A stretch of 64,000 bases of DNA from assembly GCF_030547245.1 (NCBI RefSeq), contig NZ_JAUOQT010000001.1:620001-684000 (forward strand). Direction: 5' to 3'. Both the position numbers and the translations under genes were made by a program. This document shows positions 11,915 to 47,540 of this stretch, one piece after another. The stretch comes from Oceanihabitans sp. 2_MG-2023. Lineage in GTDB: Bacteria > Bacteroidota > Bacteroidia > Flavobacteriales > Flavobacteriaceae. Every line of letters begins with the position of its first letter. Position 1 is the stretch's first letter. The notes under the pieces are model-generated. The model had not been told where the DNA came from. It did no database searches and saw only the letters and a program-made list of their open reading frames with translations.

Positions 11915-12051
11915 TCAGTTGTAAATGTATAAAAAAAAGCGAATTAACAAAAAGAATCTATTTCTTTTTAAGGTAAAAATCTCTTTTAATTGCAAAAAAC
12001 ATCGGTAAACTGTTAAAATTTAACACTTTTTCTATAATTAAATAAAAAAAG

Positions 12052-12125
12052 TGGTCCCACTTGGGCTCGAACCAAGGACCACCTGATTATGAGTCAGGTG
12101 CTCTAACCAACTGAGCTATGGGACC
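12052..12125 (-). tRNA. tRNA with CAT anticodon (Met, or Ile2 if modified)
   Basis: A full cloverleaf reads leftward from GGTCCCA at 12125 to its partner TGGGACC at 12053, with discriminator A at 12052. The D arm AGCTCAGTTGGTTAGAGC, anticodon stem CCTGA/TCAGG with loop CTCATAA, and T arm with GGTTCGAGCC are canonical. CAT can be elongator Met or the lysidine-modified Ile2; the sequence alone does not settle this. The 3' CCA is not encoded, and a T-run follows. Confidence 0.93.
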
Positions 12126-45146: not shown

Positions 45147-45824
45147 ATGCTCGATGCAATTTTAACAGCAATTCCTTTCGGAATCATCCTATCTTTTACC
45201 ATAGGACCTGTTTTTTTTGTACTACTCGAAACTAGTGCTACCAAAGGAATAAAAAGTGCTTTAATATTTGATTCTGGAGTAATTTTAGCAGACATTTTCT
45301 TCATTATTGTTGCTTTTTATAGTACCAATAAACTTCTAGAGAAAGTAAAAGACGATCCTAGCTTTCTTATTTTTGGAGGTGTTTTATTAACAGCTTATGG
45401 TTTAATTTCATTTATTAAAACCTCAAAATCTTTTCGTGAAATTGTTAGAGAATATCATAGAGTAGAATTTAAAAAAGATTATGGTAAACTATTTATTAAA
45501 GGTTTCTTACTTAACTTTATAAACATTGGTGTGCTACTTGGTTGGCTTGGTTTTATTGTAATTGGTAACTCTTTAACAGAAAATACAAAACAACTGCAAA
45601 TATTTTTAGGAACTATTTTATTGGTTTATTTTTTAGTAGATTTATTAAAGATTGTTGCTGCAAAAACACTTAAAAATAAATTAACACCAAGACGTATTTT
45701 TAAGACAAAAAAAATAGTAGCTCTTGTAATTTTAGGTTTTGGCATTTTACTTTTAGTACAAGGTTTTTTTCCTAAAGAAAAAGAACTTATTAAAGATAAG
45801 TTAGAGCAGATCAGCCCTATTTAA
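45147..45824 (+). CDS. LysE-family translocator
   Basis: The 225-residue membrane protein has about six hydrophobic helices and the LysE signature near the N-terminus (PFGIILSFTIGPVFFVLLETS). The family exports amino acids or other small solutes. The substrate cannot be told. It follows the GIN-domain gene by 39 bases on the same strand. Confidence 0.85.
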   Translation: MLDAILTAIPFGIILSFTIGPVFFVLLETSATKGIKSALIFDSGVILADIFFIIVAFYSTNKLLEKVKDDPSFLIFGGVLLTAYGLISFIKTSKSFREIVREYHRVEFKKDYGKLFIKGFLLNFINIGVLLGWLGFIVIGNSLTENTKQLQIFLGTILLVYFLVDLLKIVAAKTLKNKLTPRRIFKTKKIVALVILGFGILLLVQGFFPKEKELIKDKLEQISPI

Positions 45825-45859: not shown

Positions 45860-46278
45860 TCAAAAATCTAGTCCTTTTTCTAATTTGGGATCCACAATAA
45901 TATTTCCTTTTAAATAGATTTTTTCCTCTATTAATACCCCTTTTTTAGAATCCATATATTGTGAATAAACCTTCATTTTATATTTACTAATAGAATTAAT
46001 TAGAAAGCTTAAATCTACAGTATCCAGATAAATCCATCTGTTTCTTTTCCACTTTCCAATTTTTACACTATTGGATAAAATCAACCCATTCTTATTTAAA
46101 CGAAAATTTTTATAAAAAGTCAAAGCTACCTTTGACTTTTATACAATAAACAATGTTTCAGTCAATATTGTAATTTCTTCATTATTTAGTCTAACAATTT
46201 TTGAAGACTCTATTACTCGATGCTTACAGCCACACGATAATAAAGTGTAAAAAACAAGATTGAAAATAAGAATTTCAT
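45860..46278 (-). pseudogene. Broken lipoprotein gene (frameshift and in-frame stop)
   Basis: An ATG at 46278 gives MKFLFSILFF. A missing base in a T6 run (46249-46254, minus strand) breaks the frame; adding one T restores a lipobox (YTLLSC) and 30 further residues. The restored frame then meets TAA at 46139-46141, and the same frame stays open after it (KSKVALTFYKNF...) to a TGA at 45860. The last 87 codons alone would need a TTG start inside a hairpin (46111-46142), so I read the whole as one decayed gene of about 138 codons. I do not recognise the family. Programmed frameshift or sequencing error in the T-run are alternatives. Confidence 0.6.
46111..46142. terminator. Perfect inverted repeat inside the pseudogene
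   Basis: AAAAGTCAAAG pairs with CTTTGACTTTT across a 4-base loop (TATAAAAAGTCAAAG on the left side and CTTTGACTTTTATA on the right). It has the form of an intrinsic terminator but lies within the decayed lipoprotein frame, so its role is unclear. Confidence 0.45.
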
Positions 46279-46305
46279 TAAGTTTTAATATTTGTTTAGT
46301 TGTAA

Positions 46306-46997
46306 ATTAAAAAACTCCATTCATGTTGAAATTTTCTTTGGTGTCTATCGGATTCGAACCGCTGTATTAATCTTACTATAAATTTTCTTAAAATTTAAAA
46401 TAAAAAACCCCTCCACTTTTGTTGAAGGTTTTTTGAGGTGTCGTTTCTTTCTTTCGAACTACTGTACAAACCTTACTCTAAATTTCTTAAATTAAAAAAC
46501 TCCATTCATATCGAAATTTTCTTTGGTGTCTATCGGATTCGAACCGCTGTATCAATCTTACTATAAATTTTCTTAAAATTTAAAATAAAAAAAACCTCAA
46601 CTTTTGTTGAAGGTTTCTTGAGGTGTCGTTTCTTTCTTTCGAACTACTGTACAAACCTTACTCTAAATTTCTTAAATTAAAAAACTCCATTCATGTTGAA
46701 ATTTTCTTTGGTGTCTATCGGATTCGAACCGCTGTATCAATCTTACTATAAATTTTCTTAAAATTTAAAATAAAAAAAACCCTCAACTTTTGTTGAAGGT
46801 TTCTTGAGGTGTCGTTTCTTTCTTTCGAACTACTGTACAAACCTTACTCTATTTTTTTTAAATTTCTTAAATTAAAAAACTCCATTCATATTGAAATTTT
46901 CTTTGGTGTCTATCGGATTCGAACCGCTGTATTAATCTTACTATAAATTTTCTTAAAATTTAAAATAAAAAAAACCTTCAACTTTTGTTGAAGGTTT
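46306..46997 (-). repeat. Tandem array of tRNA-Cys 3' halves with terminators
   Basis: Four tandem units of 185, 185, 195 and about 130 bp start at 46306, 46491, 46676 and 46871. Each carries a type-1 fragment matching 25 of 27 bases of the tRNA-Cys T-arm and acceptor end (46340-46366, 46525-46551, 46710-46736, 46905-46931). The first three also carry a diverged type-2 fragment (about 46437, 46622, 46808); in the fourth the corresponding place is the intact tRNA. A hairpin and AT-rich spacer separate the fragments. Type-1 and type-2 halves align with each other, so the base unit is about 90 bp arranged as dimers. Confidence 0.85.
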
Positions 46998-46999
46998 CT
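46970..46999 (-). terminator. tRNA-Cys terminator
   Basis: Leftward, AAACCTTCAAC pairs with GTTGAAGGTTT over a 4-base loop (46972-46982 with 46987-46997) and is followed by eight Ts, right after the tRNA-Cys 3' end. The same hairpin is repeated with one or two mismatches in the other units. Confidence 0.8.
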
Positions 47000-47001
47000 T
47001 G

Positions 47002-47072
47002 AGGTGTCGAGCGGATTCGAACCGCTGTAGATGGTGTTGCAGACCACTGCCTAGCCACTCGGCCACGACACC
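47002..47072 (-). tRNA. tRNA-Cys (GCA anticodon)
   Basis: Leftward from 47072, GGTGTCG pairs with CGACACC at 47009-47003, with discriminator T at 47002 as expected for Cys. The D arm (GGCCGAGTGGCTAGGC), anticodon stem GTGGT/ACCAT with loop CTGCAAC, and T arm AGCGG/CCGCT with TTCGAAT are intact. CCA is not encoded. The neighbouring array is made from its 3' half. Confidence 0.94.
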
Positions 47073-47168: not shown

Positions 47169-47540
47169 CTATTTAGATGTACTTTTTCTTTTTTCGGTAA
47201 TTTCAATCGTTACCATTTCTACATCTCCACCAATTGGAGGGTTAATTTTACTCACTGCAACTGTAGCAATAGTAACTAATTTATCTTCATTAAAAACACG
47301 AGTTAAAATACGTTTTGCAACGGTTTCTAATAAATGAGAAGGTTTTGCCATTTCTTCACGAATCACTTTATTTAAAAACACATAATCCACAGTATCTTTT
47401 AAATCGTCTGTGTTTGCACTTTTTTGTAAATCGGCTTTTACCTTAATATCTACACGATAATCGCTACCAATTTTTGTCTCTTCGGTTAAGCAACCATGAT
47501 GTGCAAAAACACGAATATTTTCTACTTTAATTATTCCCAT
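47169..47540 (-). CDS. folB: Dihydroneopterin aldolase
   Basis: FolB cleaves 7,8-dihydroneopterin to 6-hydroxymethyl-dihydropterin and glycolaldehyde in folate synthesis. The opening IKVENIRVFAHHGCLTEETKIG contains the conserved FYGxHG-like segment, followed by DTVDYVFLNKVIREEM with the active-site lysine region and HLLETVAKRI. Length 123 is normal. Confidence 0.93.
   Translation of the reverse strand: MGIIKVENIRVFAHHGCLTEETKIGSDYRVDIKVKADLQKSANTDDLKDTVDYVFLNKVIREEMAKPSHLLETVAKRILTRVFNEDKLVTIATVAVSKINPPIGGDVEMVTIEITEKRKSTSK

Follow-up and report, generated by a model that had tools for sequence, protein, structure and literature searches.

Gene context and structure of the array

The window analysed here is a stretch of 64,000 nucleotides of the genome of Oceanihabitans sp. 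2_MG-2023 (assembly G000). ARAGORN identifies a single intact tRNA-Cys gene with a GCA anticodon in this 64-kb window, together with a tRNA-Met gene at 12051–12125 and no further tRNA genes. On the minus strand, folB (47169–47540; Pfam FolB) is followed by tRNA-Cys, a strong terminator and a tandem array, and a LysE-family gene (45147–45824; Pfam) lies beyond the array in the opposite, convergent orientation to tRNA-Cys. A small open reading frame of 87 amino acids with a TTG start and without a Pfam match occupies the minus strand at 45860–46123, between the array and the LysE-family gene.

Seven partial copies of tRNA-Cys, four of type 1 and three of type 2, lie downstream of the intact gene and reach to about position 46303 (Table 1). 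TRF reports a period of 185 bp with 3.8 copies, 95% matches and a score of 1256, and a repeat search places the starts of the 185-bp copies at 46303, 46488, 46673 and 46868, with spacings of 185, 185 and 195. The acceptor-end motif GACACC recurs along the array at spacings of 98, 97, 98, 88, 97, 88 and 97. Each 185-bp dimer consists of one type-1 half and one type-2 half. The type-1 half is composed of a palindrome, a linker and a tRNA copy whose T stem retains 4 of its 5 pairs; all four type-1 copies include an exact run of 18 bases of tRNA-Cys. The type-2 half retains 1 of 5 T-stem pairs, the acceptor end and a terminator-like hairpin. An earlier note on this DNA, made from the sequence alone, had described seven extra copies with alternating spacings of 97 and 88 bases, arranged as 185-bp dimers, and type-1 fragments with 25 of 27 bases and an 18-base run in common with tRNA-Cys. 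The GACACC spacings and TRF bear out the former, and the latter holds for all four type-1 copies. The loss of the T stem, which the note had ascribed to the fragments in general, applies to type 2 but not to type 1.

Table 1 Features of the tRNA-Cys array in the Oceanihabitans window
Feature	Position	Strand	Basis
Intact tRNA-Cys (GCA), seed of the array	47001–47072	-	ARAGORN; Rfam tRNA 61.3 bits
First intrinsic terminator, 14-pair hairpin and T tract	46969–47000	-	Inverted-repeat and terminator scan
AT palindrome TAAATTTT-AAG-AAAATTTA, unit 1	46944–46962	-	Identical copies at 46749–46767, 46564–46582 and 46379–46397
Type-1 copy, 3' part of tRNA-Cys, 25/27 bases	46905–46931	-	Shuffle test and alignment
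Type-2 copy, T stem lost, CGACACC kept	46808–46838	-	Alignment
Terminator after type-2 copy, 14 pairs	46774–46805	-	Terminator scan
Type-1 copy, 25/27 bases	46710–46736	-	Alignment
Type-2 copy	46622–46652	-	Alignment
Terminator-like hairpin after type-2 copy	46588–46619	-	Terminator scan and alignment
Type-1 copy, 25/27 bases	46525–46551	-	Alignment
Type-2 copy	46437–46467	-	Alignment
Terminator-like hairpin after type-2 copy, weakened by mismatches	46403–46434	-	Terminator scan and alignment
Most distal type-1 copy, 25/27 bases	46340–46366	-	Alignment; Rfam tRNA 24.7 bits over 46339–46409
Entire 185-bp tandem array	46303–47009	-	TRF range

Specificity of the array

The existence of the array is confirmed. 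When the 3' half of tRNA-Cys was compared with the region downstream of it in the window, none of 1000 shuffles matched as well, and the 5' half found no match there (p = 0.96). The derivation of the units from the 3' half of tRNA-Cys and its terminator, as had been proposed, is supported. A search of the 3.69-Mb assembly with the 185-bp unit returned the four array matches and, elsewhere, one weak match of 29 bases (E = 5.8e-4). Among the 30 of 36 tRNA genes of G000 that were tested for a copy of their own 3' end behind them (30 genes in two scans and 29 in a third), only tRNA-Cys was positive, and a general phenomenon across the tRNA genes of this genome is therefore rejected; one of these scans also matched intact neighbouring tRNAs.

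The array is not a cluster of tRNA genes. The units do not fold as tRNAs, ARAGORN calls the first gene only, and the best Rfam tRNA score among the copies lies below the cut-off of 29 bits, in agreement with the earlier view that the fragments are not tRNAs. Between 45800 and 47600, only the tRNA itself reaches its Rfam cut-off, which rejects an RNA known to Rfam. A different tRNA gene in each unit, which would have spoken against the earlier description, is likewise rejected, since the fragments in relatives are those of tRNA-Cys itself. The array is specific to this locus, recurs in relatives, and is of a kind that is known but has seldom been noticed.

Recurrence in the Flavobacteriaceae

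A FolB scan produced 80 named loci (L036–L115), all with tRNA-Cys behind folB; the genera represented include Lacinutrix, Winogradskyella, Bizionia, Olleya, Algibacter, Hanstruepera and Flavivirga. Together with the window they make 81 loci, of which 80 were long enough for the copy test; L039 was too short and was dropped. Tested against the 300 bases that follow it, the 3' half of the locus's own tRNA-Cys outperformed shuffles at 33 of 80 loci for p ≤ 0.05 and at 20 for p ≤ 0.001, compared with 3 and 0 of 80 for the 5' half used as a control; the test shuffles single letters, and its p values, like those of the permutations, are optimistic because the loci are related. A tRNA-Cys 3' copy is detectable in 28 of the 80 orthologous loci (the window and 79 relatives), and the same locus, to which the earlier note had pointed, thus carries recurring arrays in this family. 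L042 and L061, whose matches were judged by eye to be chance matches elsewhere, were dropped before the own-tRNA, tree and palindrome counts. The openly accessible literature that was searched yielded no description of such tRNA-Cys tail arrays from this family.

Arrays with fresh copies occur in further genomes. G248, assembled in one contig, has four units with a spacing of 109–112 bp, the first two copies being perfect; G186, also in one contig, has three units behind tRNA-Cys; and G272, in 20 contigs, has six units spaced by 112–117 bp. L169, L170, L189, L190, L192 (no tRNA called) and L203 were left out of this further-genome comparison, and some records are duplicates: L172 is the L082 locus, L186 is the L048 locus, and L039 and G002 are one genome. 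In G002 (L039, L151–L152) and G003 (L153), contigs end inside the array, and the assemblies probably understate the number of copies in these genomes.

Two covariance models, built in part from units of some of the genomes that they match, were searched against 249 genomes of the family. The R1 model, which represents the S unit (see below), matches 9 of 249 genomes at E ≤ 0.01. In the six with strong matches (E < 1e-6), all matches lie directly behind tRNA-Cys, and the three weak ones (G202, G156 and G021; E from 6.6e-4 to 9.5e-3), two of which are not at tRNA-Cys, are about as many as expected by chance. The R2 model, which represents the L unit, matches 38 of 249 genomes at E ≤ 0.01. Most of the weaker R2 matches (E above 1e-4) fall on the tRNA-Cys gene itself, and in all ten genomes with E < 1e-4 a unit lies behind tRNA-Cys. 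The strong R1 and R2 matches together cover 14 different genomes of 249, all at tRNA-Cys. Each genus is represented by roughly one genome among the 249, so that the trait clusters in a part of the family.

On a GlnRS tree of 77 rows, which includes the window and omits L045, L053 and L064 (short GlnRS matches) and one locus without a match, the palindrome state changes at least 15 times and the copy state at least 22 times. These changes represent repeated loss, gain or both.

The interval between tRNA-Cys and the LysE-family gene contains variable ordinary genes in 48 of 80 loci, falling into 39 ORF clusters, and is a mild insertion hotspot in L036–L115. A GIY-YIG nuclease-like protein of about 116 amino acids is encoded in this interval in 7 loci; the Pfam GIY-YIG score is 26.0 bits in L098, above the cut-off, and 19.2 bits in L049, below it.

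Unit types, breakpoints and renewal from the tRNA end

Each unit is laid out as a tRNA-Cys 3' fragment, a terminator or its remnant, and an AT palindrome with a linker. Most units are spaced by about 94–116 bp and carry no cargo. Two types are distinguished by whether the copy starts in the anticodon loop (L) or at the T stem (S). In a set of 47 units with an alignment score of at least 22, 20 of the 21 scored L units begin at tRNA positions 33–37, within the anticodon loop (31–37), and 24 of the 26 scored S units begin at 43–48, at the 5' edge of the T stem; the L count includes the L082 locus a second time, as L172. Neither the units of one array nor those of related species are independent, and related loci are counted separately in these breakpoint counts as well as in the tracking and polarity counts that follow.

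The copies track the tRNA of their own locus. Across the 28 loci, they are closer to the 3' half of their own tRNA than to those of other species, to a degree reached in none of 20,000 label permutations, and among 15 variants the own one takes first place, alone or shared, at 19 of 28 loci. In L052 and L107, rare changes are common to the copy and its own tRNA. Furthermore, in 22 arrays with at least two palindrome units, the copy nearest to the tRNA matches it better than the farthest copy in 19, worse in 1 and equally in 2. The nearest copy is usually the freshest, so that renewal seems to start at the tRNA end, with decay increasing away from it. The Oceanihabitans array is one of the two ties, with no polarity among its four type-1 copies.

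In tRNA-Cys copies of several genera, a part of the T loop after GGTTC is replaced by a TCCCGA..TCGGGA-like hairpin (L043, L073, L077, L063, L082, L014, L208 and L169), with arms that vary in some. Across the 80 named loci (643 kb), exact TCCCGA..TCGGGA arms occur 4 times, of which 3 lie within tRNA-Cys copies, and exact TCCCGATAGCTATCGGGA is present in 5 of 40 genomes; these low counts make an abundant mobile repeat a weak candidate for this hairpin.

Own-tail copies behind other tRNA genes

In G248, a REP-like hairpin stands behind tRNA-Gly, tRNA-Ile (three copies), tRNA-Thr and tRNA-Trp; its sequence is CTGAGCNNAGTCGAAG or, in the case of tRNA-Ile, a variant of it, and behind these hairpins lie 12–18 bases of each tRNA's own 3' end. 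Hairpins of the CTGAGC..GTCGAAG kind go by the name REP. In G186, tRNA-Gly and tRNA-Thr are arranged likewise with diverged hairpins, and behind one tRNA-Tyr (L298) lies a tail whose T loop contains a hairpin; the match at another tRNA-Tyr (L295) resembles a different tRNA-like sequence, with a weak Rfam tRNA there. The loci concerned are L210, L215–L217, L221 and L230 in G248 and L271, L277 and L298 in G186, from scans that covered 30 of the 42 tRNAs of G248, 30 of the 34 of G186 and 30 of the 36 of G000. The tail copies at these other tRNAs begin in or near the T loop. The exact 16-base motif CTGAGCNNAGTCGAAG is dispersed, occurring at 0 to 37 places in ten genomes and at none in Oceanihabitans.

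The association of a hairpin with the tRNA's own tail at several tRNAs favours a copying mechanism linked to hairpins. At tRNA-Ile of G248, only the 3' end is repeated and the linker is not, so that simple tandem template switching does not explain this case.

Similarity to known systems

The closest known case is that of the 178-bp repeats of E. coli tyrT/tyrV. In E. coli K-12, where rttR and tpr are annotated at the tyrV locus, 3.1 repeats of 178 bp lie behind tyrV, each starting with the last 19 bases of tRNA-Tyr and each holding a perfect palindrome CGTTGCC-NNN-GGCAACG, with 7-bp arms and a 3-base loop. Like these, the tRNA-Cys arrays consist of tandem repeats directly behind a tRNA, each with the 3' end of that tRNA and a short palindrome that is perfect and has a loop of 3 bases. 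Thus, this architecture was already known once, and the earlier note, to whose author no named element of this form was known, overlooks it. However, the tRNA and the phylum are different, the tRNA-Cys units contain terminators or their remnants and are mostly about 94–116 bp long, their copies have two start regions, and they occur in many genera. The rtT RNA model (RF00391) has no match in G000 and, among 14 control genomes, matches E. coli only, which rejects an rtT homologue in Oceanihabitans. PMC2965389 assigns conserved rtT-like elements to BIMEs and proposes that rtT could act in the stringent response.

Displaced tRNA 3' fragments are also known from genomic islands, as the Islander principle (PMC4383910), and from partial tRNA genes (PMC9897764). 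There, as here, an intact tRNA has behind it a fragment that begins in the anticodon loop or the T region and includes the 3' end. Unlike island fragments, the tRNA-Cys arrays are associated with no island or integrase that was found, and they contain multiple fragments at a spacing of about 100 bp that track the present tRNA. A short palindrome tied to repeat units is common to the arrays and to REP/BIME elements, but the palindrome of the tRNA-Cys array is not dispersed in G000. A pattern of palindrome plus linker has 4 exact matches in this genome, all within the array, and, with 3 mismatches allowed, 5 matches elsewhere compared with 3 for a control pattern; a dispersed REP/BIME repeat is rejected, because the exact matches are confined to the array.

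The AT palindrome and a possible function

The palindrome lies just behind the terminator in the units, as TAAATTTT-NNN-AAAATTTA in the S type and as TAATTTTT-NNN-AAAAATTA in the L type, and is the best conserved part of the unit. It raises the possibility that the palindrome and the T-arm-like copy form a functional element, as RNA or as a protein-binding DNA site, that is kept by selection. Candidate variants of this explanation would be a by-product RNA similar to that of tyrT/rtT or a decoy for tRNA-modifying or tRNA-processing enzymes. In 36 of 80 loci, a 19-bp AT palindrome (at least 17 of 19 positions) occurs at a fixed place, 28–51 bases behind tRNA-Cys, where the background rate predicts 0.16. 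Palindrome and copy are associated (both in 23 loci, neither in 39, palindrome only in 13, copy only in 5; Fisher p = 1e-6), and the 13 loci in which the palindrome stands without a detected copy speak for a function. On the other hand, the same test does not find the palindrome at this site in 44 of 80 loci, and its repeated changes of state on the 77-row tree speak against a conserved element.

The arms of the palindrome covary: 95.6% of cells are paired, 12 are changed on both sides, and none of 500 shuffles gives pairing as high. Such covariation is as compatible with a DNA dyad as with an RNA stem. In 43 sister-group pairs, which were chosen for having the palindrome, arm identity is 94.9% compared with 64% for the terminator. 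The arms are thus conserved beyond a purely neutral spacer, which points to some selection. The array also folds better than 20 shuffles (z = -7), but tandem repeats inflate the z-scores of folds. The TCCCGA..TCGGGA-like hairpin at the same T-loop place in copies of several genera is in line with a function, and the wide variation of the copies in the T arm is not. The promoter scan used a model of the sigma-70 type and not one made for this phylum. Taken together, a functional element is possible but on the improbable side.

Integration at tRNA-Cys

According to the Islander paper (PMC4383910), the anticodon loop, the T loop and the junction between T and acceptor stems are the crossover subsites of tRNA islands. 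The tRNA-Cys copies run from such places toward the 3' end of the tRNA, which is suggestive of an integrase origin; the same places are also the loops and edges of hairpins. It can be supposed that integrative elements took tRNA-Cys as their attB and displaced its 3' half, and that what is left of them, or a non-autonomous unit of about 100 bp that an integrase moved in trans, built up the array from the tRNA side. The position of the freshest units on the tRNA side and the perfect copies in the first two G248 units are consistent with this. In addition, a viral contig of 74 kb (IMGVR_UViG_2905984197_000003; L209:10050–10145) carries a displaced 3' half of tRNA-Cys that starts with the anticodon arm and is complete from there on, followed by a hairpin that looks terminator-like by eye; the 12 kb of this contig that were examined contain no full tRNA. 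Judging from this arrangement, the 3' half is probably an attachment site and tRNA-Cys probably the attB of some phage of the order.

The integrase gene that would mark an att scar beside the tRNA was not found among representative ORFs from 48 loci. A Pfam search (E ≤ 0.001) of one representative for each of the 39 ORF clusters (ORFs of at least 90 amino acids with ATG starts), from tRNA-Cys to the LysE-family gene or to the end of the available sequence, revealed no integrase, recombinase or transposase. Exact palindrome patterns have 0 matches in viral contigs and the array stretch of G248 has 0 matches in plasmids, and carriage of the unit by a phage or plasmid is rejected on these searches. 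Three phage records match the first 72–77 or so bases of the query, which are the tRNA part; these are presumably phage-borne tRNA-Cys genes. The near-constant spacing of the units without cargo also argues against integration. Thus, the att-like integration that the earlier note had considered receives indirect support from the copy starts at island subsites and from the viral 3' half, but the integrases for which it had proposed to look beside tRNA-Cys in relatives were not found among the ORFs of at least 90 amino acids in the 48 loci. As no integrase was found beside the array, such scars are no more than a possible starting point: an integration event may have given rise to the first duplication, and the array does not need it. 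As an account of the arrays as a whole, integration is unlikely.

An assembly artefact or chance similarity is refuted for the existence of the array and is highly improbable otherwise: the breakage of contigs at the arrays of G002 and G003 makes collapsed or inflated copy numbers possible, but the 185-bp copies differ from one another by base changes, single-contig relatives (G001, G186 and G248) carry arrays at the same locus, and the shuffle tests speak against chance.

Origin and significance of the arrays

The best reading of the array is a satellite seeded by tRNA-Cys that arose by hairpin-linked duplication together with slippage or unequal exchange, and we give this reading about an even chance of being right. 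Template switching at hairpins and unequal exchange between repeats are general routes of duplication. The tRNA 3' end and terminator would have been duplicated repeatedly beside a conserved hairpin, the palindrome. The simplest route would be template switching during replication, from the palindrome hairpin back to the T arm or the anticodon arm. Later slippage or unequal exchange among the repeats of about 100 bp could then also refresh copies from the tRNA, while selection would preserve the first tRNA and displaced copies would decay outward. In Oceanihabitans, two adjacent units may have diverged and then been amplified as the 185-bp dimer; amplification of a slippage type, as the earlier note had suggested, fits the 185-bp tandem array. 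The effect on the cell would be at most that of serial extra terminators between tRNA-Cys and the convergent LysE-family gene, and the tRNA fragments would be read only on leakage through the first terminator.

The satellite reading is supported by the locus specificity of the array, its recurrence, the tracking of the own tRNA, the polarity, the breakpoints, the association between palindrome and copy, and the parallels at other tRNAs and in E. coli. Against it stand the arms of the palindrome, which are conserved too well for a neutral spacer, the two breakpoint regions, which could equally be integrase subsites, the type-1 copies of Oceanihabitans, which are without polarity, and the unrepeated linker at tRNA-Ile of G248. 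The earlier note had missed that the palindrome is conserved, that such arrays recur in relatives and that they are polar.

A single curiosity, the tyrT repeats of E. coli, thereby becomes a recurrent pattern with measurable rules, namely that the breakpoints fall at preferred places in the tRNA, that the units contain a palindrome and that renewal takes place at the tRNA end. For annotation, this is a warning that tRNA 3' fragments need not signal genomic islands. How tRNA tails duplicate, and whether the products act, becomes directly testable. A more specific proposal, which we consider doubtful but worth stating, is that the palindrome behind the tRNA in Flavobacteriaceae drives repeated outward re-duplication of the 3' end, with the cut lying in the anticodon loop or in the T arm, and that other hairpins do likewise at tRNA-Gly, tRNA-Thr, tRNA-Ile and tRNA-Trp of relatives and made the tyrT repeats of E. 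coli. If such hairpin-driven copying is true, the tRNA-Cys palindrome and tail would be a self-perpetuating, site-specific repeat unit of about 100 bp.
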